Shown here piece by piece: positions 29,014 through 44,858 of a stretch of DNA of 64,000 nt (positions within the stretch are counted from its first letter, which is position 1; each line of letters opens with the position of its first letter). The notes beneath the pieces are model-generated. The model was not told where the DNA came from and searched no databases. It worked only from the letters and a program-made list of their open reading frames with translations. The position numbers and the translations under genes were made by a program. Origin of the DNA: Gemmatimonadota bacterium (GTDB taxonomy: Bacteria; Gemmatimonadota; Gemmatimonadetes; Palauibacterales; Palauibacteraceae); NCBI GenBank assembly GCA_021295785.1, contig JAGWBR010000011.1, forward strand, positions 1-64,000. Direction: 5' to 3'.

Positions 29014-29039
29014 TTCCGTCTCCCGGGTTCGCGAAGAGG

Positions 29040-29070
29040 TTGACCGTGTAACCCAAGCGGGCAATATAAG
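29040..29070 (+). promoter_or_regulatory. Candidate promoter for the DUF5916 gene
   Basis: TTGACC (29040-29045) matches a -35 box. A TATAAG at 29065-29070 is 19 bases away, and the overlapping AATATA at 29063-29068 is 17 bases away. Either would place transcription start roughly 25-35 bases upstream of the ATG at 29107. It lies in the 93-base gap between divergent genes. Evidence is motif match only. Confidence 0.4.
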
Positions 29071-29106
29071 GTTCAACGTCAGGTCCTCCCCAACCGTTGA
29101 TTCGGC

Positions 29107-31446
29107 ATGAACAACAAACTCCTCCCCGGCTCGCGGGGCGCGGTTGGAACGCTGGCGCCGGGTGCCCTTATTCTCTCCGCTCTTCTGTTCCGAGCGGCGG
29201 TCGGTCAGGCGCAGGAATCTCCGGCGGCGCCGGGCCCCGAACGGACGGCGGGCGGACAGACCGATGTGGTACAGGCCGAACCTCTGGCGGACGGCGAGCG
29301 GATTCGGCTGGACGGGGTCCTGGACGAACCGGCATGGGGCCGGGCGCTTGCGATTTCCGGGTTCAGCCAGCAGGAACCAGTTGAGGGCGGGACCCCTTCG
29401 CAGCTCACCGAGGTTTGGGTCGCCTACAGCAGCAGGAACCTCTACATCGCCGCCATCATTCACGATGATCCGCGGGAGGTGCTTGCCCACCAGCGCGAGC
29501 GCGACGCGTGGTTGTTCACCGACGACAGATTCGCATGGGTGCTCGATACTTTCCGTGACGGGCGGACCGGGTATTTCTTCGAGACCAACGCGGCCGGTGT
29601 CCTGAGCGACGGAATTATCGGAGGCGGCGGAGGCAGGGGCGGCGGCGGTTTTGGCGGCGTCAACCGCAGCTGGGACGGGATTTGGGAAGTCCGCACCTCC
29701 CGCGGCGAATACGGATGGTCTCTGGAGGCGGCGGTCCCGTTCAGGACGCTCAATTTCGATCCGGCGAGCGATACCTGGGGAATCAACTTCCAACGGTCAA
29801 TTCGCAGGCACAACGAAGAGATTCTGTGGCGCGGGTGGCGGCGCAACGAAGGGCTAACCCGGCTCGTTTTCGCGGGCAGCCTGACCGGCCTTGCGGGGAT
29901 GTCGCAGGGAGTGGGCATGGAGGCGCGACTGTCGGGCATCGGCAGTTGGCGGAACCAGGTCGACTCGGATCCCGTTGACACTTATCCGGGCGACGCCAGC
30001 CTTGATCTGAGTTACAGCATCACGCCGGGGCTGCGGGCCTCGCTCAGCCTGAACACCGATTTTGCCGAGGTTGAGAGCGATCAGCGGCGGGTCAACCTCA
30101 CCCGGTTTCCGCTGCGGTTTCCCGAGAGACGGAGTTTCTTCCTGGAGGGTTCGGGGGTGTTCAGCTTTGCGCCCAGAAGTGGTCCCTCGCCCTTCTTTTC
30201 CCGCAGAATCGGCATCTCCGGGGGCGAGCAGATTCCCATCAACTACGGACTGCGCCTGACGGGGCAGGTGGAGGGCGCGGACCTGGGGTTCTACCAGATG
30301 GGCACGGGGAGCCACACGCTTGCGGAGGACCAAGGCACGGTGGAACGCGAGGCGTTTTCGGTAGCCCGGGTCCGGGTTCCGATCCTGGAACAGTCGGCGG
30401 TCGGAGCCATTTACACACGGCGCGCGACCGCGGCCGATTCGCTGGGGGTGGTCCCGGCCGACCGGCACACGGCGGGAATGGACATCGATTTCAAGACATC
30501 CAACTTTCCGGGTGGCAACAACTTCGAAATCGAGGCGTTCTACGTGTGGAACTCCAACCACGACTCCGAAGACGAGAAAACGCTCGGGGATCTGACGGCG
30601 CGGGGTTTCCGGTTCAATTTCCCCAACGACATCTGGCAGTGGCACCTTTCGTACCGTGAGTTCGGCGACGACTACAGCCCGGCCGTGGGGTTTGTTACGC
30701 GGAACGATTTCCGGCGGGTCGAGCCGCGATTCGCGTGGGCACCGCGGCCCGCGGTCAGCTGGCTCCGGCAACTGCAATTCTCGGCCCAGTACAGGCGGCT
30801 GTGGGGCTTGGGGAGCGGGGTTGTGGAAGAAGAAACCTGGGACCTTGGCCTGCTGGAATTCGATTTTGAGAGCGGCGACAACATCTCGGTCGAGGCGAGC
30901 AGAGTGTACGAGTATCTGGATAACGGATTCGAGGTCAGCGACGGCGTCGACATCGAAGGCGGGGAGTACACCAACTGGGAGGTTCAACTTCGCGCCCGGA
31001 CGGCGAGTCGCCGCGCGGTTTCGCTCCGGGCCGGCGTAAACCGCGGCGGGTTCTGGAACGGCGAACGGACCCGGATGGACGCCAACGTCACCTTCAGGCC
31101 GTATCCCGGGATCACCGTCGAGACGAGCTTCGAGCACAACAACGTTGATCTGCCCCAGGGCGATTTTCGCACGAACCTGGCCCGGCTCGAAGGCGGCTGG
31201 AATCTTTCTCCCTGGGTTAGCGCGACCAACCAGTTGCAATACGACGACGTGAGCCGGCTGGTGGGGTTGTTCGCCCGGTTCCGCTGGATCCTCCGCCCGG
31301 GGAACGATATCTACCTGGTTTACACCCACAACTGGCAGCGCCTGGATTCGGGCCTGCTGGACGATGACGACGAAATGACCGTCGACGGTTTCCGTACCCT
31401 CTCGCGCGGCGGGTCGGTCAAGCTCAACTACACCTACCGGTTCTAA
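29107..31446 (+). CDS. Carbohydrate-binding family 9-like / DUF5916 outer-membrane protein
   Basis: A 779-residue secreted protein. After a signal peptide, residues about 55-210 form a CBM9-like domain (IRLDGVLDEPAWGRALAISG; NLYIAAIIHDDPREVLAH; a WGINFQRSIRR strand). The rest is DUF5916, a beta-barrel-like region with FPERRSFFLEGSGVFSFAPR and SRRIGIS, many alternating aromatic strands and a C-terminal aromatic strand ending in Phe (TYRF), as in outer-membrane barrels. A glycine-rich insertion (GGGGGRGGGGFGG) lies near residue 180. The ligand and function are unknown. Length is normal for the family. Confidence 0.88.
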   Translation: MNNKLLPGSRGAVGTLAPGALILSALLFRAAVGQAQESPAAPGPERTAGGQTDVVQAEPLADGERIRLDGVLDEPAWGRALAISGFSQQEPVEGGTPSQLTEVWVAYSSRNLYIAAIIHDDPREVLAHQRERDAWLFTDDRFAWVLDTFRDGRTGYFFETNAAGVLSDGIIGGGGGRGGGGFGGVNRSWDGIWEVRTSRGEYGWSLEAAVPFRTLNFDPASDTWGINFQRSIRRHNEEILWRGWRRNEGLTRLVFAGSLTGLAGMSQGVGMEARLSGIGSWRNQVDSDPVDTYPGDASLDLSYSITPGLRASLSLNTDFAEVESDQRRVNLTRFPLRFPERRSFFLEGSGVFSFAPRSGPSPFFSRRIGISGGEQIPINYGLRLTGQVEGADLGFYQMGTGSHTLAEDQGTVEREAFSVARVRVPILEQSAVGAIYTRRATAADSLGVVPADRHTAGMDIDFKTSNFPGGNNFEIEAFYVWNSNHDSEDEKTLGDLTARGFRFNFPNDIWQWHLSYREFGDDYSPAVGFVTRNDFRRVEPRFAWAPRPAVSWLRQLQFSAQYRRLWGLGSGVVEEETWDLGLLEFDFESGDNISVEASRVYEYLDNGFEVSDGVDIEGGEYTNWEVQLRARTASRRAVSLRAGVNRGGFWNGERTRMDANVTFRPYPGITVETSFEHNNVDLPQGDFRTNLARLEGGWNLSPWVSATNQLQYDDVSRLVGLFARFRWILRPGNDIYLVYTHNWQRLDSGLLDDDDEMTVDGFRTLSRGGSVKLNYTYRF

Positions 31447-31452
31447 CTTCGC

Positions 31453-31458
31453 TATAAT
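31453..31458 (+). promoter_or_regulatory. Possible -10 element within a small hairpin
   Basis: A perfect TATAAT lies 7 bases after the DUF5916 stop codon. It is also the loop of a short stem (AC-TCGC with GCGAGT, one bulge), followed by CGGGCA and six T. No good -35 box is found 16-18 bases upstream. It could be the promoter of the aminotransferase gene at 31550 or part of a weak terminator. Confidence 0.25.
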
Positions 31459-31549
31459 GCGAGTCGGGCATTTTTTGAGGGAATCCCAAAATTCCCGCAC
31501 CGCCCCGTGTCGCCAACCGCCTAACCGATCGATGCCCAGGAGACATTCA

Positions 31550-32734
31550 ATGGCAATGACCGCCGATGTTACCCGCCGCCGTTTCATGGGAAGTGCCGCC
31601 GCTGCGCTGGCCGCCATCGGGCTCAAGCCCGATAGCAAGGTGTGGGCGCAACCGGGGCGCGCCCCCACCTTCCCGATGAGTCGCGATGATGAGTACGATT
31701 CGCTGATCAAGCTTGCGTCCAACGAGAACCCCTGGGGCCCGTCGGAGGCCATGATGGAGGCCATGAACTCGGCCTGGAAGTATTCAAACCGTTACGGTTA
31801 CCCCGATGGCAACGTGCGCGAAGTGATCGCCGAACATCACGGGGTGCGGCCCGAGAACATTCTCCTGCATGCGGGATCGGCGGAGACACTCAGGGTGGCG
31901 GGGCTCACTTTTCTGGGCCACGACGAAAAGGTGGTCGGGGTTGAACCCACTTTCACCACGGTTTATCAGGCTGCTTCGGGAATAGACGCGGATGTGGTCG
32001 CGCTGCCGTTGAACGACGACGCCACGCAGAACATCGACGAGATGATTCGCGTGACGCGGCGGAACTACCGCGATGTCGGGATGGTTTATCTCTGCAACCC
32101 CAATAACCCGACCGGCATCACCGTCTCTTCCCACGACGTGCAGAAACTGCTTGACGGTATCCCGGAGGATATCCCCGTTCTGATCGACGAGGCGTATCAC
32201 CACTTCATCATGGACCCGTCGTATGCCACCGCGGTGCCCTACGTGAAGGAGGGCCGCAAGGTCCTGGTGACGCGCACCTTCTCGAAGATCTACGGGATGG
32301 CCGGCATGCGGCTGGGCTACGGGATCGCTCCGCGCGACATGATCTCCGACATGCGGCGCTACACCACCGGCACCGTGAACGCTCTCGCCAAGTGGGGCGG
32401 CGTGGCGGCTCTGGCCGACACCGAGACCGAGCACTGGGTGCGCGACGAGACGATCCGCGTTCGCGAGGAGACGAGGGAAGCCCTCATCGAGATGGGCTTC
32501 AAGGTCCTTCCCAGCGACACCAATTTCTTCATGGTCCACACGGGTCGCATGGCTTCGGAGGTCCGGGGGGAGTTCCGCCGCCGCAACATCGCGGTGGGAC
32601 GCGACTTCCCGCCGATGCTCGACTACCTGCGGGTTTCGATCAGCACCGAAGAAGACATGGACAAGTTCATGGAGGCCTGGCAGGAGATTTTCCCCGACGG
32701 TATGACTGCCGACGCGGGGACAAGAGGGAACTGA
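31550..32734 (+). CDS. Tat-exported class I/II aminotransferase (histidinol-phosphate aminotransferase-like)
   Basis: A 394-residue fold-type I PLP enzyme. Conserved parts are KLASNENPWGPSEAMMEAM, the NPNNPTG motif, the DEAYHHF aspartate strand and RTFSKIYGMAGMRLGYG with the PLP-binding Lys. These resemble HisC-type aminotransferases. Unusually, the N-terminus is a twin-arginine signal (TRRRFMGSAAAALAAIGL), so the folded holoenzyme should be exported. ATG 31550 has CCAGGAGA at 31537-31543 with ideal spacing; earlier in-frame codons are less likely. The substrate is unknown, and a role in histidine synthesis would not fit export. It is coupled by CTGA to the next gene. Confidence 0.85.
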   Translation: MAMTADVTRRRFMGSAAAALAAIGLKPDSKVWAQPGRAPTFPMSRDDEYDSLIKLASNENPWGPSEAMMEAMNSAWKYSNRYGYPDGNVREVIAEHHGVRPENILLHAGSAETLRVAGLTFLGHDEKVVGVEPTFTTVYQAASGIDADVVALPLNDDATQNIDEMIRVTRRNYRDVGMVYLCNPNNPTGITVSSHDVQKLLDGIPEDIPVLIDEAYHHFIMDPSYATAVPYVKEGRKVLVTRTFSKIYGMAGMRLGYGIAPRDMISDMRRYTTGTVNALAKWGGVAALADTETEHWVRDETIRVREETREALIEMGFKVLPSDTNFFMVHTGRMASEVRGEFRRRNIAVGRDFPPMLDYLRVSISTEEDMDKFMEAWQEIFPDGMTADAGTRGN

Positions 32735-33390
32735 CCGCCTCACCGGCGCGACGCGCCGCCGCCGCGGTTGCGGCGGCGCTCGGCGCCCTGTTTGCCGCCG
32801 CGGCGTTCTTGGGGCCGACCCCGGTTTCGGCCCAGGAGGTTGAGGTCGGTTTCAAGGGGGGCGCGAATTTCAACGATGCACGGGTCCCCAGGGCCGGGAT
32901 GCGCCGGGGGTTGTCGGTGGGCGCGTTCGTAAACGTCCGTGGCCTGGAGTGGCTGGGGGTGCAGGTCGAGACCGTGTATTCGCGCCGCGGCGCGGGGCTG
33001 CGGTCCGCCCGGCAATCAGGTGATATCAGGATTGACTATATGGACATCCCGGTCATGATGCGCGGCTCGGTGACCGATCCCCGTCGCCGGTTCAGGTTTT
33101 CGCTGATGGGCGGTTGGTACTACGGAGTGGAGGTGGGCTGCGGACTGACGGAACCTCCCGAAGACCCCGAAGGCGCCGTCTGCGATGCCGCGCTTCCCAA
33201 CCGTGGTTCCACGGACACGGGGCCCGTGGGGGCATTGGTGTTCGATGTCGGGCTGACCGGCCGTTACTACTTCACGGTTGATTTGCGCTACAGCCGGGGC
33301 CTCCTCACCGAATGGGATGAGGAGGGAGGTGATCCCAGCTCCCGCAATTTCGCGCTCATGGCGGGCATCGGAATCCTGCTGGGGATCTAG
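32731..33390 (+). CDS. Small outer-membrane beta-barrel protein (PorT/OmpW-like), apparent CTG start
   Basis: A 219-residue protein with a clear signal peptide (RRAAAAVAAALGALFAAAAFLG...VSAQE) and about eight amphipathic strands, starting EVEVGFKGGANFND and ending FALMAGIGILLGI. This is the layout of PorT-family outer-membrane barrels. In this frame there is no ATG, GTG or TTG between the upstream gene and the signal peptide. CTG at 32731 overlaps the upstream TGA as CTGA and has AGAGGGA just before it, so I choose CTG. Translation is probably coupled to the aminotransferase gene. Confidence 0.75.
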   Translation: MTASPARRAAAAVAAALGALFAAAAFLGPTPVSAQEVEVGFKGGANFNDARVPRAGMRRGLSVGAFVNVRGLEWLGVQVETVYSRRGAGLRSARQSGDIRIDYMDIPVMMRGSVTDPRRRFRFSLMGGWYYGVEVGCGLTEPPEDPEGAVCDAALPNRGSTDTGPVGALVFDVGLTGRYYFTVDLRYSRGLLTEWDEEGGDPSSRNFALMAGIGILLGI

Positions 33391-33452
33391 CCCCCGAGGC
33401 TTCAGCGGACGCCGGGCGACGAGGCATTGGTGGTGGGCGCGCATCGAGATGG

Positions 33453-33480
33453 CCGTCGATCTTGACGTGAGGATCGACGG
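33453..33480. terminator. Candidate bidirectional hairpin terminator
   Basis: CCGTCGATC (33453-33461) and GATCGACGG (33472-33480) form a perfect 9-base stem around a 10-base loop. It sits in the 138-base gap between two convergent genes, where a shared terminator is expected. There is no T-run on either side, so it is not a classic intrinsic terminator. Confidence 0.45.
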
Positions 33481-33528
33481 AGCCCGGCAGACGCTGGCTT
33501 CAGATAGGCTTGGCGAAACGGGGCGCCG

Positions 33529-34434
33529 TCACGACCCGCCCGCTTGCCGCCGATAGGCCCGCGCCGGCGGCACCCGCAGATCCCACACCAGCCTCATTTT
33601 CTCCAACCCCTTCAACACATGGTGCGTGACGTCCAATTCCCACCAGTAGAACCCCTGCCGCTCCGAAGTCGGATAGCGGTGGTGGTTGTTGTGCCACCCT
33701 TCGCCCAGGGTCAGCAACGCGACCCACCAGTTGTTGCGCGAATGGTCCTTCGTGGCGTAGCGCCGGCGTCCCCACATGTGGGTAACCGAGTTGACCAGGA
33801 AAGTCACGTGGTATAGCAGGACGGTGCTGACGAACAGTCCCCAACCCAGCATCTGCCAGCGCGTGGTGCCGAGTCCGGGAAACGCCACCTCGAACCACCA
33901 GCCGAGCCCGAAGAGGACGATGGCGACGCTGAGCGGTGCCAGCATGTGTAGCCGATCAAGCAGGCGCAGTTCGGGGAACCGACGCAGATCCCGCACCAGG
34001 GATGTATCGTAGCCGTCGTAGCGACGCGACATGATCCAGCCGGCGTGCGCCCACCAGAACCCCTTGAGTCCCGGTGGATGGATGTCGTCCTCGGTGTCGG
34101 CGTGGCGGTGGTGAAGCCGGTGGTGCGACACCCACCAGAGCGGCCCGTTCTGTCCGGCACTCGCGCCGAGCCAAGCCAGCGCGAACTGGAATGGACGGCT
34201 CGTCTTGAACGACTGGTGCGCGAAGTAGCGGTGATAACCGGCGGTGATCCCGAAGAGGCGCACCCAGAAGGTGATCAGGCAGACGAGCAACGCCGGGATG
34301 CTCAACCCGGTGAACAGGAAGGCGAACGCCAGGATGTGCATGCCCACGAACGCATAGCTGCACAGAAAATCGATCCGGTCAGTCGGCGCAAGTGAATCGG
34401 TATCGACGTGGTCGCGTGCGGCGGTCTCTATCAT
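33529..34434 (-). CDS. Acyl-CoA/lipid delta-9-type fatty acid desaturase
   Basis: A 301-residue membrane di-iron desaturase. The three histidine boxes are intact: HRYFAH (residues 68-73), HHRLHH (104-109) and HNNHH (248-252), with four hydrophobic helices around them. Such enzymes insert a cis double bond into a saturated acyl chain. The ATG at 34434 overlaps the upstream stop by one base (TGATG); the longer open frame upstream is a shadow of the methyltransferase gene. As the last gene of the lipid-modification operon, it may supply the unsaturated substrate for the two methyltransferases. Confidence 0.92.
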   Translation of the reverse strand: MIETAARDHVDTDSLAPTDRIDFLCSYAFVGMHILAFAFLFTGLSIPALLVCLITFWVRLFGITAGYHRYFAHQSFKTSRPFQFALAWLGASAGQNGPLWWVSHHRLHHRHADTEDDIHPPGLKGFWWAHAGWIMSRRYDGYDTSLVRDLRRFPELRLLDRLHMLAPLSVAIVLFGLGWWFEVAFPGLGTTRWQMLGWGLFVSTVLLYHVTFLVNSVTHMWGRRRYATKDHSRNNWWVALLTLGEGWHNNHHRYPTSERQGFYWWELDVTHHVLKGLEKMRLVWDLRVPPARAYRRQAGGS

Positions 34435-35474
34435 CAGGCAGGCTTTCTGAATCGATGGTGTGAAACCCCCCACTCCCGACCGCCGCCGTAGGCGAAGGTC
34501 TCGGCTACCGCCAGGAAGAACAGTCGCCAGCGCTGCACCCAGCGGGCGGAGGACGCGGGACCATAGGTCTCGGCGAAGATCGACGCCACCCCGCCTCGCT
34601 CTCTGTCCAGGTTGGCGAGCCAGGCTTCCGAGGTGCGTGCGTAGTGCGTTCCCGGCACGAACCAATCGTCCTCGGGCTCGAGTTCACTCCGGAACTTCGG
34701 CACCAGCGTCGGACTTGGCATGAGGCCGCCGGTGAAGAACTCTCGCGCCATCCAGTCCCCCGGCCCCTCGCGGCAGAAGCGGTAGGCGCGGGCGTGATGG
34801 CAGAACACGTGAACGAAGAGCCGGGCCCGGGGCCGCATCCAGTTTGCAATTCTCTTCAAAAGGAGGGCATGGTTGTTCATGTGCTCGAACATCTCGACCG
34901 ATACGACGCGGTCGAATCGCTCGCTCGCGAAATGAAGGTCTGAGACGTCCGCCGTGACGACGAGGACGTTGTCCAGTCCCCGCCGTCGCGCCCGCGCCCC
35001 GATATGGCGGCGCTGCGAGGCCGAGTGGGAAACCGCGACGATGCGGCTGCCCGGATAGCGTTCGGCGGCGAAGAGGGTGAGCGCGCCCCAGCCGCAGCCG
35101 AGATCGAGGATATCCTGTCCATCGGAGAGCCCGGCACGCGCGCACGTGACCTCGAGCATGGCGAGTTCGGCATCGGCGAGGGTGAGTTCGCGGTCGCCAT
35201 CCGGCCACAGGCAGCAGGAGTACTTGTGCCAGGGTCCCAGAACCAGTTCGAAGAACGCAGCGGGGACCTCGTAGTGTTGCTCGTTCGCCTCGCGCGGGGC
35301 TGGAGCGATGGGGCCGGTGCGCAGCGTGTCCTCGTCGAGGGGCGGTTCGGTGGCCAGGGAACGCAGCCGTCCCCGCAGCAGGGCCCGGATCCCGGCCCGA
35401 ACGGCGAAGTCGGGGACCCGGCCCGACTCGGCGGCCGCCAGGGCACCCCGCACGACCGCTCCGGCAATGCTCAT
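34434..35474 (-). CDS. SAM-dependent methyltransferase, CFA/coclaurine-N-methyltransferase-like
   Basis: A 346-residue methyltransferase. NEQHYEVPAAFFELVLGP precedes KYSCCLW, then the SAM motif LDLGCGWGALTLFA (124-137). The VEMFEHMNNHALLLKRIA and LFVHVFCHH segments match the coclaurine-NMT-like branch of the cyclopropane synthase superfamily. This branch differs clearly from the CFA-like enzyme encoded in the same operon. The ATG at 35474 overlaps the DUF1295 stop as ATGA. It may methylate an unsaturated acyl chain or another small acceptor; the family name does not fix the substrate. Confidence 0.88.
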   Translation of the reverse strand: MSIAGAVVRGALAAAESGRVPDFAVRAGIRALLRGRLRSLATEPPLDEDTLRTGPIAPAPREANEQHYEVPAAFFELVLGPWHKYSCCLWPDGDRELTLADAELAMLEVTCARAGLSDGQDILDLGCGWGALTLFAAERYPGSRIVAVSHSASQRRHIGARARRRGLDNVLVVTADVSDLHFASERFDRVVSVEMFEHMNNHALLLKRIANWMRPRARLFVHVFCHHARAYRFCREGPGDWMAREFFTGGLMPSPTLVPKFRSELEPEDDWFVPGTHYARTSEAWLANLDRERGGVASIFAETYGPASSARWVQRWRLFFLAVAETFAYGGGREWGVSHHRFRKPA

Positions 35475-36259
35475 GGGTCGCGCCGCGGGAACCAGGGGAT
35501 GAACGCGTTCGTGGTTCGCTGGTAGCGGCGGTATTCCTCGCCGCGCCGCTCGACCGACCGCCGCTCGATGGGCGGGATGCCCGTCACGAACCGGATCGAG
35601 AACAACAGCAGAACCGGTGCGAAGAGGATGGCCCACGGGGGAGCGTGGCCATGCGCGACCGGCACGTACGCCAGCCACTGCAGCCACTCGAAAAAGTAGT
35701 TGGGATGCCGCGAATATCGCCACAGGCCCACCCTGCACACCCGTTGCTCGTTGCCGGGTGTAGCCCGGAAGCGCCGCAACTGGCGGTCCGCGACAGACTC
35801 GCCGACCAGTGAAACAAACCAGATCGCCACCCCCACGAGGTCCATCGCACGCAGCGACGGATCCGGCGACCGCATGGCGAGCAGGAAGTGCACCGAAAGC
35901 ACGATCACCAGCGCAGCCTGGACCTGGAAGAAGACGAAGAACCTGACCGGTGCACCGCGTCCCCACTTCACCCGCAGGTCCCGGTAGCGCCCATCCTCGC
36001 TCGGCGACCTGACCCGTCGGAGCAGGTGCGCGGCCAGGCGCAGCGACCACAACCCCGCCATCGCGGCCACCATCCAGCGCCGCCACCCCATCCCCACCGG
36101 CACCGCCGCCGCGTAGAACACCGCCGCGCCACCCAGACCCACCGTCCACGCCAGGTCCACCACGTCGGCCTCGCGGGTGCGCAGTTGCCGGTACCACAGC
36201 AGGACCATGACCGGTATGATCGTCACGGCCACCGTCGCGACCGCGAATGGAGCGCTCAT
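35471..36259 (-). CDS. DUF1295 domain integral membrane protein (steroid 5-alpha-reductase-like)
   Basis: A 262-residue membrane protein with about six helices. DUF1295 motifs near the C-terminus include RVGLWRYSRHPNYFFEWLQWL and a final ERRGEEYRRYQRTTNAFIPW. The RHPNYF motif is part of the NADPH-binding region in steroid reductase and isoprenylcysteine methyltransferase-like proteins. In this operon it could reduce a double bond such as a methylene or dienyl intermediate; that is inference. It is 1 base from the CFA-like gene and overlaps the next gene by 4 bases. Confidence 0.88.
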   Translation of the reverse strand: MSAPFAVATVAVTIIPVMVLLWYRQLRTREADVVDLAWTVGLGGAAVFYAAAVPVGMGWRRWMVAAMAGLWSLRLAAHLLRRVRSPSEDGRYRDLRVKWGRGAPVRFFVFFQVQAALVIVLSVHFLLAMRSPDPSLRAMDLVGVAIWFVSLVGESVADRQLRRFRATPGNEQRVCRVGLWRYSRHPNYFFEWLQWLAYVPVAHGHAPPWAILFAPVLLLFSIRFVTGIPPIERRSVERRGEEYRRYQRTTNAFIPWFPRRDP

Positions 36260-36260
36260 G

Positions 36261-37571
36261 TCATCCTCTCCGTTCCAGCACGAGCTGCCAGTCGGCTACA
36301 TGGCGGGTTCGGAACGCTGCCTCACAGTACGCAAAGTAGAACTCCCACCTCCGCAAGAATGCCTCGTCGAACCCCAGGTCGAACAGGGCGTTCCGCCGTT
36401 CCAGCAACCGCCGTCTCCACATGACCAGCGTAAGAGCGTAGTGGGCGGCGACATCCTCGCGGTCCCTGATTCGGAGGGCCGTCGGGCTCAGCGCGCGGGT
36501 CAGCGCCCCCAGCGAAGGAAGGTGCGCGCCGGGAAAGATGAAGCGCTGGATGTAGTCGGGGCGAAGCCGGTAGCGGAGGTAGCGGCTGTCAGGAATCGTG
36601 ATCACCTGGATGACCGCGCGCCCGCCGGGCGCGAGCACGCCGTCACACTTGCGGAAGTACGCCGGCAGGAACCGGTGACCCACCGCTTCGAGCATCTCGA
36701 TCGATACGACGGAATCGTACATGCCCGTGATCTCGCGATAATCCATTAGCTCGATCGAGACCCTGTCCGCGAGCCCCGCGCGGGCCATGCGCTCACGCGC
36801 GTAGGCCGCCTGCTCGCGCGAAATCGTCACTCCGGTCACTCGGCACCCGAATTCCGACGCCGCGACCTCGGCGAACCCGCCCCACCCACAGCCGATCTCC
36901 AGGACGTGCGAACCGGGGCGGAGGCCGACTTTGGTCGCCAGCAACCGGTATTTCGTCAACTGGGCGCGGTGCAGGGCCTGCATGTCGACCATGGACGGGG
37001 CCGAATCCCCGCCAGCCCCACGTGCCGAGGTCGGCGTCGCGCCTGCATCGGCCTCCAGCCGCTCCTCGTCAAAGTATGCGCACGAATACGTCATTGACGG
37101 ATCGAGAAAGAGGGCGAAAAACTCGTTACCCAAATCGTAATGATCGCGGATGTTACGGCGTGATCCCGACACCGTGTTCGATCGGAACTTGTGCGCCATC
37201 CACGCCGCCCCCGCCGCCGGCCACAGTAGGGGCGCCAGAGGCCTCGGAAAGCGGCGGTTCAGAATGCCCAGACGCACCGCGTCCATCGCCGAATCCGCCG
37301 ACCACTCACCCCGCATGTACGCCTCCCCGGCCCCGACCTCTCCGTCCGCCAGCATTCGCCGGAAGAAACGGGGATGGTGCACGCTGATCGTGGCCTCAGG
37401 CCCAGGCTGGAGGCCTCCGAATCGATACACCGTGCCATCGGGGGTACGGATCCGCAGGCACCCCCTCTTGAGGCGGCGCAGGGAACCGAGAACGACCGCG
37501 CGCCCGATACGGTCCACCATGCCGGAAGCCAGTCCGGCTGAGCTCACCTGCCGCCGCTGCGCGCCGTTCAT
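36261..37571 (-). CDS. Cyclopropane-fatty-acyl-phospholipid synthase-like methyltransferase
   Basis: A 436-residue CFA-type methyltransferase. An N-terminal lipid-binding domain (residues 20-125) is followed by NIRDHYDLGNEFFALFLDP, TYSCAYF (Cys164, matching E. coli Cys139), the SAM motif LEIGCGWGG (224-232) and VVSIEMLEAVG (Glu295, matching Glu239). In E. coli CFA synthase a His of the HTIG motif helps bind bicarbonate; the equivalent segment here is IQVITI, with Gln322. That change is seen in relatives clustered with DUF1365 and FAD oxidoreductases, so the product may not be a plain cyclopropane. A low-complexity insertion lies at residues 173-195. ATG 37571 overlaps the DUF1365 stop. Confidence 0.9.
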   Translation of the reverse strand: MNGAQRRQVSSAGLASGMVDRIGRAVVLGSLRRLKRGCLRIRTPDGTVYRFGGLQPGPEATISVHHPRFFRRMLADGEVGAGEAYMRGEWSADSAMDAVRLGILNRRFPRPLAPLLWPAAGAAWMAHKFRSNTVSGSRRNIRDHYDLGNEFFALFLDPSMTYSCAYFDEERLEADAGATPTSARGAGGDSAPSMVDMQALHRAQLTKYRLLATKVGLRPGSHVLEIGCGWGGFAEVAASEFGCRVTGVTISREQAAYARERMARAGLADRVSIELMDYREITGMYDSVVSIEMLEAVGHRFLPAYFRKCDGVLAPGGRAVIQVITIPDSRYLRYRLRPDYIQRFIFPGAHLPSLGALTRALSPTALRIRDREDVAAHYALTLVMWRRRLLERRNALFDLGFDEAFLRRWEFYFAYCEAAFRTRHVADWQLVLERRG

Positions 37572-38371
37572 CGCATCCCCCGCCTTCCCCGCCGCCAACC
37601 CCCAAGCCCATTGTCCGGCGGCTCGGGCTTGCGAAAGAACGGAACACGCTTGGCCCACAGCTTCGCGGCCTGCAAGTGGATCAGGAAGATTGTCCGCGCC
37701 GTCAGGTGCGGATTGCTGAGCATCGCCCGGGCGAGGCTTGCGGTGGTAAGGGGCTGGCGGACCAGGTTCAACGTCGCGTCGAAGTACTTCTCGTCCCCCT
37801 CGAACTCGTCGATGTGGATGGTGAGACGGTCGCCGGGCGGCGTCACGATCCATTCGTAGTGGACCCCGTCGATCTGCATGAACGGCGAGACGTGGAACCG
37901 CTTGTCCACACGTGAACGGACCGCCTGCCCCCCCACCGGATCGCTGCCGTCGAGCAGATAGCAGTATGCCTCGCCGAAGGTGTTGGAGACCTCGGCCACC
38001 GTGAAGCGGAGCCCGCCCGCACCGTCCAGAAAAAAGAAGTAAGACACCGGGTTGAAAACGTAGCCGAGAACGCGGGGGTTAGTGAGCAGCATGACCCGCG
38101 AGTCACCCAGGTCGCGTCCCTGCGCGCGCAGCCAGCGAGCGAGCTTGTCTCGCAACGGTTCGTCCGTGCCCCCCATATGGTCCCGGTCGTGAAACGAGAT
38201 GAGTCCGGCGCGGTTATAGCCGAAGAACCCGATCTCGCGATCGAGCGCCGCAAGTTCGGAGAGGTCCAGGAGCAACTGGTAGACCCTGTACTGGAACGAG
38301 TTATGACGAGGCACGCGGCGCCGGTGCCGGACCGTGCCCAAGTAGAGCCCGGAGCGAAGCGGATTGCTCAT
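37568..38371 (-). CDS. DUF1365 domain-containing protein
   Basis: A 267-residue protein of the DUF1365 family, whose activity is unknown. Family features are LYLGTVRHRRRVPRHNSFQYRVY at the N-terminus, RVLGYVFNPVSYFFFLD, EVSNTFGEAYCYLL and KRFHVSPFMQIDGVHYEW. The family almost always neighbours an FAD amine-oxidase-like protein and a CFA-like methyltransferase, as here. ATG at 38371 overlaps the FAD gene stop as ATGA. It is predicted cytoplasmic or peripheral to the membrane. Confidence 0.93.
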   Translation of the reverse strand: MSNPLRSGLYLGTVRHRRRVPRHNSFQYRVYQLLLDLSELAALDREIGFFGYNRAGLISFHDRDHMGGTDEPLRDKLARWLRAQGRDLGDSRVMLLTNPRVLGYVFNPVSYFFFLDGAGGLRFTVAEVSNTFGEAYCYLLDGSDPVGGQAVRSRVDKRFHVSPFMQIDGVHYEWIVTPPGDRLTIHIDEFEGDEKYFDATLNLVRQPLTTASLARAMLSNPHLTARTIFLIHLQAAKLWAKRVPFFRKPEPPDNGLGGWRRGRRGMR

Positions 38372-39609
38372 TCGAACCTCCCGCCGAGTTGTTCGGCAGC
38401 CACGACCGCCGATCGCAACCCGTCCTCGTGGAAGCCGAAGCCGAGGTAGGCGCCGCAGAAATACGTGCCACGCCGGCCGTTGAGCGCGGAAATGGCCGAC
38501 TGGGTGGAGGCCGACGCCACCGTATAGACCGGATGGGTATAGCTGACGCGATCGTGGGCGTGGTTCGGGGGCCGCGGAGGGTTCAAGGTGACGAGAAAGG
38601 GCGTGGCCGGATCGAGGCCTTGAAGACGGTTGAGGTTGTACGTCATGGTAGTTGCCGGGGAGGGGTTCCGACAATCGCCAACATGATAGTTCCAGGAGGC
38701 CCGCGCCGCCGCGCGCGAGGGCAGGTACCCGGGATCGGAGTGGATCCAGGTATCGTTGGTCGCGTACCGCCATGCGCCCAGTAATTCCCGTTCGGTGTCG
38801 GAGGGTTCCCGCAGGAGGGCGAGGGCCTCGTCGGCGTGCGTGGCCAGGATGACCCGGTCGAACTCCTGGCTGGCGCCGTCCGCGAAGTGCAGCCGGCAAG
38901 CCGTCTCCCCGCGAACCACTGAACTGACCGGGAGGCCCGTGTGGACACGCCCCTCTAGCCGACCCAGCATCGCTTCCACGTAGGTCCTGCTTCCCCCGGG
39001 GATCGACCGCCACTGGAGCCGCCCGCGTAACTGGAAGAGTCCGTGACGGCGAAAGAAGTCGACGAACCTCGCGGCCGGAAACCCGGTCACGGTTGGAATC
39101 CCCGTCGACCACAGCGCCGAAGCCAAGGGATAGGCATAGTGACGCCCAAGCACCTCCGAACCGGCCTGTGCGACGAGATCACGCAACGTCCGACCATCCC
39201 AGGTGGCGCCGCCCCGCCGGCCGGCGGCGTGAAATCGCCGGATCTGCGCCAGGAATCTCAGAAATCCCGGTCGAAACGCATTATGCGGATCGGCGAAGAC
39301 CCCCTTCACACCCAACCCGCTGTACACCACCCGGCATCGCTCGCACTCGAAAGAGAACGACATGTCGCTCGGTCTGGAGCGCACCCCGAGCGCCGCAAAG
39401 AGTCTCGCCAAGAGGGGATAGGTCTCCTCGTTGTAGACGATGAACCCGGAGTCGACCGCGATGGAGCCCCAGGGTCCGGCGACCCGGTGGGTGTGGGTGT
39501 GGCCGCCGATTCGCGTCTCGCGCTCGAAGACGTGCAGGTCATGTTTCGGGGCGAGCAGCCAGGCCGCTCCGAGACCCGAGATACCGGTTCCGACAACAGC
39601 TATCCTCAT
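38368..39609 (-). CDS. FAD-dependent amine-oxidase-like oxidoreductase
   Basis: A 413-residue flavoprotein. VVGTGISGLGAAWLL (residues 5-19) is the dinucleotide-binding motif, followed by FERETRIGGHTHTH and SGFIVYNEETYPLL. The C-terminal TYFCGAYLGFGFHEDGLRSA closes the FAD site. This is the oxidoreductase that accompanies DUF1365 and CFA-like enzymes. It is the first gene of the six-gene lipid operon. A weak TATGTT lies 6 bases before the ATG without a clear -35 partner. It could desaturate or oxidise a methylated acyl chain. Confidence 0.9.
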   Translation of the reverse strand: MRIAVVGTGISGLGAAWLLAPKHDLHVFERETRIGGHTHTHRVAGPWGSIAVDSGFIVYNEETYPLLARLFAALGVRSRPSDMSFSFECERCRVVYSGLGVKGVFADPHNAFRPGFLRFLAQIRRFHAAGRRGGATWDGRTLRDLVAQAGSEVLGRHYAYPLASALWSTGIPTVTGFPAARFVDFFRRHGLFQLRGRLQWRSIPGGSRTYVEAMLGRLEGRVHTGLPVSSVVRGETACRLHFADGASQEFDRVILATHADEALALLREPSDTERELLGAWRYATNDTWIHSDPGYLPSRAAARASWNYHVGDCRNPSPATTMTYNLNRLQGLDPATPFLVTLNPPRPPNHAHDRVSYTHPVYTVASASTQSAISALNGRRGTYFCGAYLGFGFHEDGLRSAVVAAEQLGGRFE

Positions 39610-39628
39610 TTCCAGAACATAGTCGATA

Positions 39629-39739
39629 TTACGGTGAGTCCCGCCGCTCTTCCCGCCGCCCCGTCAGCCCGGTCTCGCGCCCGTCGGGGGTCCACAGCCA
39701 CAGGTTGTGGTCCCGGATGAACACCCACCGCCACCTCGG
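39629..39739 (-). pseudogene. Possible remnant of an S9-type (DPP IV-like) peptidase propeller
   Basis: A short minus-strand frame reads RWVFIRDHNLWLWTPDGRET followed by GLTG and soon a stop. This resembles one blade of the N-terminal propeller in S9 peptidases (SPDG..VFVRDHNLW...G...LT). No start codon, no further blades and no catalytic domain are found. The fragment lies in the gap before the lipid operon and in front of the cutA gene. It is either a decayed gene piece or a chance match. Confidence 0.35.
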
Positions 39740-39894
39740 TCCCCCCGGCGACCGAACTGCGGTACCAGAACAGCCCCGGCCGCATATTGGGGCTGTTACC
39801 GGAAAGTGCGATTTTCGTGAACTTCTTGCGGGCGGCAGTGAATCCGCGGGAAACTGTCATGGGACCCGGTCCATTTGGGAGGAATGCGGCAATA

Positions 39895-40197
39895 ATGAAA
39901 GTGGTTCTGATGAGCGGCCCGGACGCCGAAACGCTGCGTCGCCTGGGCCGGCAACTGGTGGAGGAAAGGCTCGCGGCCTGTGTGACCGTTCTGCCGGAGG
40001 CTGTGTCGGTCTACCGGTGGGAGGGCGAATTGCGTGAAGAGGACGAAGCGATGGCGATCGCCAAGACCGCCCACCCGGACCGTCTGGTCCAAAGAGCCGC
40101 GGAGCTCCATCCGTATGACACCCCCGAGGTCCTGGTACTGCCCGTGGAGTCGGGGCTCGACCGCTATATCGACTGGGTGCGGTCAGCGGGAGGTTGA
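39895..40197 (+). CDS. cutA: Divalent-cation tolerance protein CutA
   Basis: A 100-residue protein of the CutA family, a small trimeric cytoplasmic protein linked to copper tolerance. Motifs are LVEERLAACVTVLP (with Cys29) and YRWEGELREEDEAMAIAKT, followed by HPYDTPEVLVLPVESGLDRY near the C-terminus. The ATG at 39895 is preceded by GGGAGG (39878-39883) and gives the normal family length. The stop overlaps the convergent ctaG gene by 15 bases. Confidence 0.95.
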   Translation: MKVVLMSGPDAETLRRLGRQLVEERLAACVTVLPEAVSVYRWEGELREEDEAMAIAKTAHPDRLVQRAAELHPYDTPEVLVLPVESGLDRYIDWVRSAGG

Positions 40198-40968
40198 AAA
40201 CAACGGTTTCTTGCCTCCGGCGGGTCCGTCGCGGTCTGTCTGGTACCACCGCCAAAAACACACACCGGTCGCGGTCCACAGAACAATACCGCCCCCGATC
40301 CGCATCAACAGACCGGCCATCCGCTGGTCTTCCGCCGACGAAAGCGGGCCGACGGGCGGGGCCAGTTCGTAGGTGGCGTAGAACGGGAGTTCGGCGAAAG
40401 TGAGGAAGATGTAGGGGAGCGTCAGCAGAACCGTGCTCGCCAGCAGATAGACGGCCTGCATTCCGAAGTGCATGGGCCGCGCCGGGCGCACGAGAGGTGC
40501 CCAGAACGCCAGCCCGGCCGCCAACCACACGATGTCAAACGCGAACGACCCCGTTTGGGTGGCCATCATCCCGTCCACGATCGCCGGCCAGTGCGTGGCG
40601 ACCACCACCGTGTGGAACACGGCGAGGCCGACTCCGGGTCGCACCGGAAGGCGCACCCGGGCCGGCAGCCCGGTCAGCAGCAGGGGCGGAGCGACAAGGG
40701 CGATCAGCAGGAACTGCACCATGTGGACCCAGGCCAGATAACCGGATCCCAGCGCGCCAACAGGCCAGTCCAGGGCGATCCAGAGGGTCAGAACGCCCAG
40801 ACCGAAACTCGCTTTCCGTAGCAGCCACCGCGGCCCGGCGTCGTACCAAGGGCGGGCCGCGGCGAGCCAGTAGCTGCCGGCGAGGGCTCCGACGAACAGC
40901 CAGACGCCGGGATATGCCTGCCACTGCCAAGACCACGCAGCGCCCTGGGCGGCGCACCACCACCTCAC
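40183..40968 (-). CDS. ctaG: Cytochrome c oxidase assembly protein, CtaG (caa3-type) family
   Basis: A 261-residue membrane protein with about seven helices. The segments LDWPVGALGSGYLAWVHMVQF and HFGMQAVYLLASTVLLTLPYIFLTF are typical of the Caa3 CtaG family found in Gram-positive and many Gram-negative bacteria. These proteins help assemble cytochrome c oxidase, probably its copper centre. The GTG start overlaps the SCO stop as GTGA, so both act in the same pathway and are cotranslated. Confidence 0.88.
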   Translation of the reverse strand: MRWWCAAQGAAWSWQWQAYPGVWLFVGALAGSYWLAAARPWYDAGPRWLLRKASFGLGVLTLWIALDWPVGALGSGYLAWVHMVQFLLIALVAPPLLLTGLPARVRLPVRPGVGLAVFHTVVVATHWPAIVDGMMATQTGSFAFDIVWLAAGLAFWAPLVRPARPMHFGMQAVYLLASTVLLTLPYIFLTFAELPFYATYELAPPVGPLSSAEDQRMAGLLMRIGGGIVLWTATGVCFWRWYQTDRDGPAGGKKPLFSTSR

Positions 40969-41657
40969 CCTCCGTTGCCGTCGCCAGCCGCCCGGGAGAT
41001 CATGATCGGCAAGTCATGCCGCCAGTCGGTTTGACGCACGCCCATGGGATACATCGCACGCACCGAGTCTCCGTAGACCGCGACCACCGGGGTGGCGTGA
41101 CCGGGCTCGCCCCCGGGCGACATGACCGAAGGCGGCAGCCCCAGCGCCACCTGAACTGCGTTGACGGAGTCCAGATCATCACGAAGGCCGATGAACCGCC
41201 GGTCAAAGGTGTCGAGCCACTGCCGGATCTGCTCGGGCGTGTCGCGCTCCGGGTCGACGCTGGCGAACACCACCCGCACCCGGGACCGCTCAGCGTGCGA
41301 CAGGTTAGACAACGCCTGGCTCAATACCGCCATTTGGACGGGGCAAATGTCGGGGCAGTTGGTGAACCCGAAGAAAAACAGCGCGAGCTTGTCGGAGACG
41401 TCATCGGGAAAGTCGAACGCCACAGGCTCGGTCCCGGTCAGCTCGATGCCGGTCAGGGTGAATGGTTCCACGGGCAGCGGCCTGTCAAGCTCAAGCCCCC
41501 TCAGCCCGGCCCGTCCTTCGGTGCGATCGAATCCGCCGCCCACCGCTTCCGAGTCGGACTCGGAGGCCGGCCCGCAGGCGGAAGCCGCGACCGCCGCCAC
41601 AAGTGCAAACAGGGCCGCCATCACCCGGGGGAAACGAACCTGCCTCGGTGTCTTCAA
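40965..41657 (-). CDS. SCO1/SenC family copper chaperone (lipoprotein)
   Basis: A 230-residue thioredoxin-fold protein for maturation of the Cu-A site of cytochrome oxidase. The copper-binding CPDIC motif (Cys101, Cys105) and the later His (GHAT, His187) are present. The N-terminus has a signal peptide with a lipobox (ASAC, Cys28). The best start is TTG at 41657: it overlaps the preceding stop as TTGA and has GGGAGG eight bases upstream. The longer open frame before it translates to sequence without a signal peptide at its start. Confidence 0.88.
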   Translation of the reverse strand: MKTPRQVRFPRVMAALFALVAAVAASACGPASESDSEAVGGGFDRTEGRAGLRGLELDRPLPVEPFTLTGIELTGTEPVAFDFPDDVSDKLALFFFGFTNCPDICPVQMAVLSQALSNLSHAERSRVRVVFASVDPERDTPEQIRQWLDTFDRRFIGLRDDLDSVNAVQVALGLPPSVMSPGGEPGHATPVVAVYGDSVRAMYPMGVRQTDWRHDLPIMISRAAGDGNGG

Positions 41658-42586
41658 GGGAAGAGCCTCCCGCCATAGTTCATGAGCACCACCATGCCTC
41701 CCGCCGCCGCTCCGATCACGTACCCCAGGCGGACGATGATCTGAAGCTCGCTTCGGCCCAACCCGTGGATCAGGGATCCGAGTTTGTCGGGGGGTAGGGC
41801 ATTCACGTTGTCGGCAATCCGGTCGGCCACCTGAATCCGTTGGGCAATGCGCGGTACCTGCGTGGCTACCCACTCCCAGGCGCCGGGCCCGATCGACTCG
41901 GCTGCCCTGAAGGCGGCTTCCGGCCCCACGTACCGGTCCAAACGCCCGATGGGTTTGCTGAGGAAACTGTCAACCAGATTCACCGCCGCGGTCTGGGAAA
42001 GCGCCCTGGCGGTTCCAGAGTTGAGCAGCGCTGCCAGCCAGCCGGCTATCCTGTCGGGTGGCACCAGATGAAGCATCTCCGTCCACCCCGATTTCGGAGA
42101 CTTGCCGGCGGCCGACCGAAGCCACTCCACGAGAGCCTGCCTCGAGGCCGCGTCCCTGGCCTGGGCGGTCTCCTTCAATTGGACCACCGCGGCATCGCGA
42201 CCCTTTGCAAGCAGATTGACCAGCACAAACCTGACCTCTTGGAGAGCCGGTTCGGGGATGATCTCTGCCAGAGGGGGATGCGACTCCGAAACGAGGTCGG
42301 ACATCATTTCGCGCAGCCGCGCCAGGAACTCCTCCTCCAACCCGCGGAGCTCGTCCTTGATGTCAGAAGACGTCAGCAGTGAACCGCTCACCGTATTCCC
42401 GATGGAGGCCGCCAACCGGTCCTGGTTCTTGGGAATTGCGCCCTGGAGCCATTTCACTTCCCGCCCGAAGATCCGGGGGGGAACGCTGGGCTTGAACAGC
42501 ATGGTTACCGCAATCCGGTTGGTTACGCCCCCGGTCAGCGAGGCCGCCAGGATGGTGATGCCGGCGGTGAGCCAGTCAAATTCCAC
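41654..42586 (-). CDS. DUF445 family membrane protein
   Basis: A 310-residue protein of the DUF445 (YheB-like) family. It has hydrophobic helices at both ends (residues 8-30 and about 287-305) and a long amphipathic helical middle. The opening TGGVTNRIAVTMLFKPSVPPRIFGREVKWLQGAIPKNQDRLA corresponds to the family motif in which N..A..MLF.P is conserved. GTG start. It is the first of three coupled genes with SCO and ctaG. Its function is unknown. Confidence 0.82.
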   Translation of the reverse strand: MEFDWLTAGITILAASLTGGVTNRIAVTMLFKPSVPPRIFGREVKWLQGAIPKNQDRLAASIGNTVSGSLLTSSDIKDELRGLEEEFLARLREMMSDLVSESHPPLAEIIPEPALQEVRFVLVNLLAKGRDAAVVQLKETAQARDAASRQALVEWLRSAAGKSPKSGWTEMLHLVPPDRIAGWLAALLNSGTARALSQTAAVNLVDSFLSKPIGRLDRYVGPEAAFRAAESIGPGAWEWVATQVPRIAQRIQVADRIADNVNALPPDKLGSLIHGLGRSELQIIVRLGYVIGAAAGGMVVLMNYGGRLFP

Positions 42587-42618
42587 GCACGCCCCTCAAG
42601 TGCGGTGCCACGCGGTTC

Positions 42619-43581
42619 TCACGGCAGCGCCAGTCCGGCGGTAAGTCCGCGCACCGCAAAGTCCGCGCCGTCCGCGTCCACTCGTACCGTGCCCCGCAGG
42701 GCAGCCAGGCCCGGTCCGCCCCCGGTGCCCCCGGTCCGCCCCTGGCCGTCTAGCTGCAGCTCGCCCGACAATCCGATTTCGGGAAAGGAGAAGGTCCATT
42801 GATCGGGCCCGCCGGCCAGTTCGATTTCCGCTGCCTCTGTCTCGGTGCCGGCAAAGAAGGCGTGCCCGGTGGAAGGGGCCCGGCCGAGCCCTTCGTAAAG
42901 GATAATCGAACGGTCCTCCCCTGCCGTGAGCAGGAACACGCGTGCGACCGACCGGCTTCGCGGCAGGTCAAGCTGCTGGGCTCCCCTTCGGAAGAACGCC
43001 AACCCGGAAAACACCTCGCCGGCGTGCTCCAGGCTGGCGCTGGCCAACCACTCTCCCTGCCCCGTGGGGCTGGGCCAGGTGCCCAGGCGGCTCAGAAAGG
43101 TCAACCGGACTCCCCCGCCCGGAGCATCCGTGCGAAGCGCGGCCAGCGACCCGTCTCCTTCCACTCCGACCGCCAGGCCCTGGGAAGGGAGGATCCGCCA
43201 GGCGGCCCGGGAAGCGGGAAGCGTGTCGGATACGCCCAAGGTCTGCTGCCAGATACCACCAAGGCGCGTCCAGGCAGCGTAGTCGGTAGCGAGCACGCCA
43301 CCGGAGACGGACTGATCGAAAACGCCCAAAAAAGCGGGTCCTTCGGGAGCCACGAACATCAGGTGGGCCAAGTACCGTGATGCGGGTTCTGCAACGGCGA
43401 CACGCTCTTCCTGGTTGTTGTCTGGATTCCCGGGCGCGCCGTCGGCATCGCCGCCGCAACCGGCTGCCACTACAAAGGCGACCCGCGCGGCACCCCGCGC
43501 CGTCCGGCGTACGGGGCCGCGCCCGGGCTGCCCGTGCGCGGCAATCACCAAAGGCGCATTACGCGCTGACCCGCCGGTCAA
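42619..43581 (-). CDS. Uncharacterised putative lipoprotein
   Basis: I do not recognise this protein. Up to 320 residues, with an Arg-rich N-terminus followed by VAFVVAAGCGGD, a lipobox-like motif. The body alternates hydrophobic and polar residues in a beta-rich pattern with WQQTLGV and FLSRLGTWPSP stretches. The start is uncertain: TTG 43581 overlaps the upstream gene by 23 bases, and TTG 43551 or GTG 43548 would place the signal peptide closer to the N-terminus. It precedes DUF445 by 32 bases on the same strand. Confidence 0.6.
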   Translation of the reverse strand: MTGGSARNAPLVIAAHGQPGRGPVRRTARGAARVAFVVAAGCGGDADGAPGNPDNNQEERVAVAEPASRYLAHLMFVAPEGPAFLGVFDQSVSGGVLATDYAAWTRLGGIWQQTLGVSDTLPASRAAWRILPSQGLAVGVEGDGSLAALRTDAPGGGVRLTFLSRLGTWPSPTGQGEWLASASLEHAGEVFSGLAFFRRGAQQLDLPRSRSVARVFLLTAGEDRSIILYEGLGRAPSTGHAFFAGTETEAAEIELAGGPDQWTFSFPEIGLSGELQLDGQGRTGGTGGGPGLAALRGTVRVDADGADFAVRGLTAGLALP

Positions 43582-43894
43582 GATTCGCCAAGAAGGCCTT
43601 AACCAGCCGGGCGGAGTGTTCGGGGCGCGGCTTCATCGTGGCGGTTGCGGTCGCGGTCACTTGGGTAAGGCCGTTGTGGTCCAGCGAAACGCGAACCCGC
43701 ACATCGTTCTTGTTCTTCCCCCGGAGTCCTGTCGCGCGGGTGGCCCAGATTTCCCCCACTTCCTCGTCTGCCTGCACCAGCTCCCAGCGGCGTTTCGAGG
43801 CGATGTGGTCGAGCACCGCATCCCAGACGGATGCGAACGAAATCAGGTAGACTCTTGTCAGGCCTGCGCCCGCCCCGGAACTTGGTTCGATCAT
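43559..43894 (-). CDS. Uncharacterised small protein, possibly DUF1499/Bet v1-like fold
   Basis: A 111-residue protein. The central part, YLISFASVWDAVLDHIASKR, then WELVQADEEVGEIWAT and DVRVRVSLDHNGLTQVTATATA, followed by a helical C-terminus (LVKAFLANL), resembles small alpha/beta proteins of the DUF1499 or Bet v1 type, but the match is weak. The ATG at 43894 shares bases with the start codon of the divergent nucleotidyltransferase gene. A near-consensus promoter (43902-43929) places the start of transcription at this ATG, which argues for it over the in-frame ATG at 43927. Confidence 0.6.
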   Translation of the reverse strand: MIEPSSGAGAGLTRVYLISFASVWDAVLDHIASKRRWELVQADEEVGEIWATRATGLRGKNKNDVRVRVSLDHNGLTQVTATATATMKPRPEHSARLVKAFLANLDRRVSA

Positions 43895-44858
43895 GCAGGC
43901 CATTATACCGCTAGCGGGCAAGGGCACAAGAGTCCGGCCACATACCCACTCCCGGGCGAAACCCCTGCTGAGGGTGGCGAATCGCCCGGTCCTGTCCTAC
44001 ATAATCGAACAGCTTCGGGCGGAGGGCGTGGACGAGGTGATCGCCGTCACCGGTCACCTCGGCGGGCAGGTCGAGCAGTGGCTTCGGGCGCAGTTCCCGA
44101 ACCTTCTGGTCCGTGTCGTCCCCCAGGCAGAGCAGAGGGGCACGGCCGACGCCATTGCGGTTGCCGAACCGTGGGTGACGGGGCCGAGTTTCATCGCGTT
44201 CGCCGATACGCTATTCGACGCCGATTTTTCCGCCGTGCGCCGGTTCAGGGGTGCCGATGCGATATTCTGGACCCGCGAAACCGATGACTGGAGCAGTTTC
44301 GGTGTTGCGGTTGCCGACGCGGGGGGACGCATCCGGAGGCTCGTCGAGAAACCGACCGAGCTTGTGTCGCGGCTGGTCACGATTGGGCTGTTCCTGGTAT
44401 CGGACCATCGGCTCATGTTTGAGGGTGTGCACGACGTACTGTCGCGTCCTCCGAATCGGGGGGAATATTATTTGACCGACGCCTTCCAGTACATGATAGA
44501 CCAGGGCGCTGACATTCGGACCGCCCCCGCCCGGGGATGGCATGACTGCGGCACGGTCGGGGGACTTCTTGACACGAACAGGATCATGCTCGACCGGGGG
44601 CATGGGATCCTGCGGCAAGACGGGCCCCCGCTGGTCGCTCTGGCGGAAGGCGTGGAGACCAGCGGGTCCCGGATGGGTCCTTACGTCAGCGTGGCGGAAA
44701 ACACCCGGGTGCGGGGGTCGCGGCTGCAAAACACCATCGTCGGTTCGGACTGCGTGATTGAGGACTGCGACCTCAGGGACTCGGTGATTGGTGACCACGT
44801 GAAGCTCCGGGGGGTCTCGGGCACGACCAACATCGGTGATCACGGGGAAGTCTCCTGA
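43893..44858 (+). CDS. Sugar-phosphate nucleotidyltransferase (NTP_transferase family)
   Basis: A 321-residue enzyme that should transfer a nucleotide to a sugar 1-phosphate. The signature PLAGKGTRVRPHTHSRAKPL is at residues 6-25, followed by EQRGTADAIAVAE (base-binding loop) and VEKPTE. The C-terminal 70 residues contain GSRMGPYVSVAENTRVRGS and a hexapeptide-like pattern (TIVGSDCVIEDCDLRDSVIGD), as in GlmU or RmlA-like long forms. The product (dTDP-, UDP- or GDP-sugar) is not determinable. The start codon overlaps the divergent ATG within CATG. Heptose and LPS genes lie downstream. Confidence 0.88.
   Translation: MQAIIPLAGKGTRVRPHTHSRAKPLLRVANRPVLSYIIEQLRAEGVDEVIAVTGHLGGQVEQWLRAQFPNLLVRVVPQAEQRGTADAIAVAEPWVTGPSFIAFADTLFDADFSAVRRFRGADAIFWTRETDDWSSFGVAVADAGGRIRRLVEKPTELVSRLVTIGLFLVSDHRLMFEGVHDVLSRPPNRGEYYLTDAFQYMIDQGADIRTAPARGWHDCGTVGGLLDTNRIMLDRGHGILRQDGPPLVALAEGVETSGSRMGPYVSVAENTRVRGSRLQNTIVGSDCVIEDCDLRDSVIGDHVKLRGVSGTTNIGDHGEVS
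43902..43929 (-). promoter_or_regulatory. Near-consensus sigma-70 promoter giving a leaderless transcript
   Basis: On the minus strand TTGTGC (43929-43924) is followed after 16 bases by a perfect TATAAT (43907-43902). Seven bases separate this -10 box from the ATG at 43894, so transcription should start on or next to the A of the start codon. The promoter lies entirely inside the first codons of the divergent gene at 43893. Confidence 0.65.

Follow-up and report, generated by a model that had tools for sequence, protein, structure and literature searches.

A six-gene operon on the minus strand of a Gemmatimonadota contig likely encodes a self-contained cassette for the synthesis of furan fatty acids on membrane acyl chains, judging from the families to which its products belong. 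Furan fatty acids have been described in plants, in fish and in a small number of bacteria; in other bacteria, such lipids are made against light and oxygen damage. The operon spans positions 33529–39609 of the window, the stretch of 64,000 nucleotides analyzed here, and brings together, as adjacent genes, the three core families of furan synthesis: an FAD protein of the amine-oxidase type, a DUF1365 protein and a CFA-like methyltransferase. From the FAD gene onwards, its genes are as follows:

38368–39609, minus strand: FAD protein, UfaD-like; 413 aa; PF01593, E = 1.2e-20
37568–38371, minus strand: DUF1365 protein, UfaO-like; 267 aa; 4-base overlap; PF07103, E = 1.1e-77
36261–37571, minus strand: CFA-like SAM methyltransferase, UfaM-type; 436 aa; 4-base overlap; PF02353, E = 5e-80
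35471–36259, minus strand: DUF1295 integral membrane protein; 262 aa; 1 base apart; PF06966, E = 5.2e-64, and PF02544, E = 1.3e-10
34434–35474, minus strand: second SAM methyltransferase, coclaurine-NMT/LIME-like; 346 aa; 4-base overlap
33529–34434, minus strand: Delta9-type acyl desaturase; 301 aa; 1-base overlap; PF00487, E = 6.2e-23

All six open reading frames are present and each has a strong family match above the Pfam cut-off, in the order Amino_oxidase, DUF1365, CMAS, DUF1295, CMAS and FA_desaturase. The junctions consist of 4-base (ATGA) or 1-base overlaps and a single 1-base gap; coordinates and family matches agree with the initial annotation, which had described six minus-strand genes overlapping by 1–4 bases or lying 1 base apart. 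The same combination of genes is found again in further Gemmatimonadota and in numerous other phyla, and the arrangement is thus not due to chance. Upstream of the operon, the window carries CtaG, SCO1/SenC and DUF445 genes (40183–42586).

The enzymes UfaM, UfaD and UfaO of Rhodobacter sphaeroides and Rhodopseudomonas palustris convert phospholipid-bound cis-vaccenate first into a methylated trans-ene, then into a methylated conjugated diene and finally into a monomethyl furan, whose ring oxygen comes from O2 and to which FufM adds a second methyl; in these two alphaproteobacteria, the three Ufa enzymes together are necessary and sufficient for furan synthesis, as is FufM for dimethylation (Lemke 2020, PMC7380195). 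The window operon contains the same three families, encoded in R. palustris by genes with consecutive locus numbers, but also a desaturase, a DUF1295 protein and a second methyltransferase; its substrate is probably a Delta9 chain rather than cis-vaccenate, and no ChrR scores over the cut-off. In the proposed pathway, the desaturase would introduce a cis double bond, probably at Delta9, into a saturated chain. The UfaM-type enzyme would then add a methyl group from SAM and shift the double bond without closing a cyclopropane ring, and the UfaD-like flavoprotein would create a second, conjugated double bond. From the resulting methylated diene and O2, the UfaO-like DUF1365 protein would form the monomethyl furan, to which the coclaurine-type methyltransferase would add a second methyl, as FufM does; DUF1295 would act as an accessory membrane reductase, probably NADPH-dependent. 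This is in essence the route proposed initially, from a saturated through an unsaturated and methylated chain to an oxidized product such as a furan lipid, and the matches to the Ufa families make it the best-supported reading; the additional genes, however, are not peculiar to this operon and their order varies.

The FAD protein carries a GxGxxG motif at residue 7, has LkcE as its closest solved protein and shares 42% identity with the FAD protein of Rhizobium tropici that adjoins DUF1365 and CFA genes. As a member of the Amino_oxidase family, it appears to be a UfaD-like desaturase/dehydrogenase of acyl chains. Identities of the operon proteins to their alphaproteobacterial homologues range from 36 to 47%, and substrate choice could differ accordingly. 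The DUF1365 protein is predicted to be the O2-dependent, furan-forming enzyme, akin to UfaO. Its AlphaFold model (pLDDT 92.9) bears a weak likeness to FABP/lipocalin-like barrels (best E = 1.6e-3), and its profile has no match among the sequences of solved structures. The formula balance of the predicted reaction closes, with diene C19H34O2 and O2 yielding furan C19H32O3 and H2O; the UfaO step would thus need no external reductant, which fits the published report in which none had to be added. We infer that the reaction proceeds via a dioxygenated intermediate.

The desaturase, with its three histidine boxes (HRYFAH, HHRLHH and HNNHH) and SCD1, the stearoyl-CoA Delta9 desaturase, as closest solved relative, is predicted to supply the double bond of the pathway. 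No second FA_desaturase was found in the genome, which is 85% complete, so that further ones could be missing; FabA does not pass the cut-off in any of the 12 genomes searched. The operon thus probably supplies its own unsaturated chains. Starting from a self-supplied Delta9-type double bond, the furan ring is predicted at C8–C11 instead of C10–C13, and the products would be 7-(3-methyl- or 3,4-dimethyl-5-pentyl/heptylfuran-2-yl)heptanoate, as against the 9M5 and 9D5 of Rhodobacter and Rhodopseudomonas. If true, Delta9-derived dimethyl furan fatty acids would occupy ring positions that have not been described for the tested bacteria.

Among solved proteins, the second methyltransferase is closest to coclaurine N-methyltransferase (E = 1.1e-61) and its plant N-methyltransferase relatives, with CFA synthases far behind (E = 1e-24). 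FufM (RPA0924), the 9M5-FuFA methylase, is also coclaurine-type, as is plant LIME1, which we take to be a member of the same group; FufM is present in only a subset of the genomes with the core, and in R. palustris it lies away from the core by locus number, whereas its window counterpart is located inside the operon. LIME1 is a lipid-droplet protein sharing 37.9% identity with FufM (PMC10940516). Of 298 Gemmatimonadota genomes, 44 encode DUF1365; 34 of these 44, and no others, also encode the second methyltransferase, a count that is inflated by linkage. In other groups, each of 19 genomes examined that have the second methyltransferase encodes exactly one DUF1365 protein; 18 of these 19 have no DUF1365 near the methyltransferase locus, and this count is mostly free of linkage. 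The second methyltransferase was thus never found without DUF1365 among these 34 Gemmatimonadota and 19 other genomes. Such a confinement fits a methylase acting after UfaO, and the protein is predicted to be a FufM-type furan methylase, the likeness to FufM being one of group rather than of directly aligned sequences.

The CFA-like methyltransferase possesses Cys and Glu at the columns of C139 and E239 of Escherichia coli CFA, and in the sequence alignment its Gln322 (436-aa numbering) falls on His266 at the bicarbonate site. The initial annotation had placed all three residues correctly but had treated Gln322 as an oddity, which it is not: every one of the 103 CFA-like proteins compared has Gln in the His266 column. 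These proteins, nearly all drawn from such clusters, originate from Gemmatimonadota, Proteobacteria, Planctomycetota, Verrucomicrobiota, Bacteroidota and Streptomyces. The residue thus marks a branch instead of being peculiar to the window protein. We take it to be the signature of a UfaM-type branch, not of cyclopropane synthases, the membership of UfaM being our own assignment; it constitutes a candidate sequence marker to tell likely furan-pathway methyltransferases from cyclopropane synthases.

Membership of the CFA family and the presence of a desaturase would also suit an ordinary operon for cyclopropane fatty acids. This reading is, however, extremely unlikely: the CFA-like protein scores 266 bits against a curated CFA synthase cut-off of 400, and neither of the two CMAS proteins of the operon reaches the cut-off of any curated CFA synthase model. 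Besides His266 to Gln, the replacements Gly236 to Glu and His240 to Ala are invariant across the cluster branch (103/103), while the Cys139 column varies between Cys, Ser and Ala; His266 is kept in three solved CFA synthases. It is also very improbable that the operon makes 10-methyl saturated (tuberculostearic-type) fatty acids in the manner of BfaA/BfaB, with the remaining genes being incidental. The BfaAB operon does share with the window a flavoprotein and a CFA-like methyltransferase, and a 4-base gene overlap (PMC5660069), but it leads to a saturated methyl-branched product without DUF1365, a protein for which this reading has no role, and the window flavoprotein is of the amine-oxidase type. 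Moreover, BfaB-type genes are recognized by a conserved Cfa bicarbonate site (PMC7791843), and the window enzyme and all its 103 relatives instead have Gln at His266 of this site.

A third alternative concerns DUF1295, which is probably an NADPH reductase with a steroid-5-alpha-reductase-like fold. Its AlphaFold model (pLDDT 96) finds sterol/steroid reductases as best Foldseek matches at modest E values (4e-3 to 5e-2), ICMT being another weak match. The motif sought in DUF1295 was the N-x-x-x-E cofactor motif of steroid 5-alpha-reductase-like NADPH reductases; in the profile match to 7c83 (E = 9.9e-6), the invariant HPNYxxE of DUF1295 aligns with PNYxxE of steroid 5-alpha-reductase. The reductase-type character of DUF1295, together with the frequent position of its gene immediately ahead of that of the second methyltransferase, also at loci away from the core, raises the question as to whether the end product is another oxidized methyl-branched lipid, in which DUF1295 would reduce the oxygenated product of DUF1365 and the second methyltransferase would act there, not on a furan. 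The identity of only 36–47% to homologues of the tested enzymes leaves room for such a scheme. It is nonetheless unlikely, as those core-family proteins that have been tested yield furans (PMC7380195) and DUF1295 is tied to neither partner: it is missing near many otherwise complete clusters and also found beside a core without the second methyltransferase, a pattern that makes it accessory. Furan synthesis is thus the reading we retain, and within it one may speculate that DUF1295 acts on the enedione formed by furan oxidation. Two incompletely understood proteins would thereby gain testable roles, DUF1295 and, as an oxygenase without external reductant, DUF1365. A more far-reaching version combines a portable, self-sufficient cassette, control by a B12 light sensor in related Gemmatimonadota, Delta9-derived dimethyl furans, and a DUF1295 that regenerates or detoxifies the furan after singlet oxygen quenching; that all of this should hold together is decidedly doubtful.

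Operons of this kind are already known and widespread. Members of the Gemmatimonadota, Proteobacteria, Planctomycetota, Verrucomicrobiota and further groups have all six genes, in differing orders, so that the search for the same six-gene order across Gemmatimonadota, which the initial annotation had put forward as a check, recovers the set but not a fixed order. When named genomes were scanned for the second methyltransferase, 80 loci were obtained, of which 53 have FAD, DUF1365 and CFA genes nearby and 25 have all six families. In R. tropici, UfaD-, UfaO- and UfaM-type genes lie together, beside a DUF1295–methyltransferase pair and sigma-70/ChrR; related genes also adjoin sigma-70/ChrR in R. 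johnstonii. In one Gemmatimonadota genome, the cluster is present twice, on separate contigs (L032 on G266:C35 and L055 on G266:C14). This distribution implies a furan pathway with its own desaturase across many phyla, including Planctomycetota, Verrucomicrobiota and Gemmatimonadota. In Stenotrophomonas maltophilia, the nine genes smlt2375-2367 are induced by sigma-Ec, and a chrR mutant depends on them to tolerate superoxide (PMC11832516). By gene order and annotation only, they resemble the window operon in having a desaturase, an FAD oxidoreductase, two CFA-type enzymes and hypothetical proteins where DUF1365 and DUF1295 would fit; the S. maltophilia cluster differs in also encoding a lipocalin and other proteins and in its control by sigma-Ec/ChrR. 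While the addition of a desaturase, a DUF1295 protein and a second methyltransferase in one unit is real, it is thus not special to this DNA. To our knowledge, the new elements are Gln at the His266 column as a marker, a second methyltransferase that strictly depends on DUF1365, a cassette transferred as a whole and, in Gemmatimonadota, an association with B12 light sensors.

By sequence comparison, the window copy is a horizontal acquisition, and the transferred unit is:

33531–39661, no strand assigned: horizontal transfer unit; about 90% DNA identity to the genome of another family; likeness stops at the operon edges

Identity over this unit to genome G058, from that other family, is 90.1%, and the flanks have about 65–77% DNA identity to the window's own genus, on one side up to about position 39900. 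The operon is present in 3 of the 17 genomes of the genus, the window's own included. In a tree of the six proteins, the window copy pairs with that of G058 (support 0.999), nested inside the other genus; the donor is thus most likely on the side of the other family. The cassette would thus be able to move between families as one operon. A misbinned contig was rejected because both flanks resemble the window's own genus and keep local collinearity with it; the notion that the genus simply lacks the operon is ruled out by the two further congeners, which have an older copy with 60–74% protein identity to that of the window. There is still a small chance of a chimeric join, which reads would reveal. 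No tRNA was found within 28000–46000, and the operon ends show no long terminal repeats by which transfer could be explained. Next to the junction (39880–40200) lies a gene that appears by eye to be of CutA type and is conserved in congeners.

The initial annotation had linked the operon both to the Rhodobacter Ufa enzymes and to the singlet-oxygen regulon. The former link agrees with the family matches; the latter does not carry over, as no ChrR scores over the curated cut-off in 12 genomes (the window's own and eleven related). RpoE or ECF-type promoter motifs show no upstream enrichment either, and control by ChrR/RpoE in Gemmatimonadota was rejected on these two grounds. Instead of ChrR, the local regulatory link in related loci would be provided by CarH/LitR-like B12 regulators. 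Among 45 related Gemmatimonadota neighborhoods, 15 contain a gene for a MerR-B12 regulator, and 14 of these 15 regulators have the Wx9EH motif, which we take to be that of CarH/LitR light sensors:

L036:4529–5476: MerR-B12-binding regulator, with homologues in L039–L042, L050, L051, L053–L055, L057, L062, L066, L067 and L070

The WERR[YF] signature of this regulator was not found in the window, so that the transferred copy may have arrived without its light switch. The literature yielded no paper joining furan, LitR and cyclopropane. Photolyase-like, fasciclin, DUF2177 and MsrP-like genes recur near related clusters, the photolyase-like call being made by eye, as Pfam gave no match. Beside clusters lies an MsrP/MsrQ-like pair, a molybdopterin oxidoreductase and a ferric-reductase-like membrane protein (L033:4644–6274); the MsrP-like gene is present in 6 loci, which suggests a common context of oxidative-damage repair. 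A fasciclin-domain protein is encoded near the cluster at L036:5260–6132 and in nine other loci; in R. sphaeroides, the fasciclin gene RSP_1409 is induced by singlet oxygen (PMC7074977).
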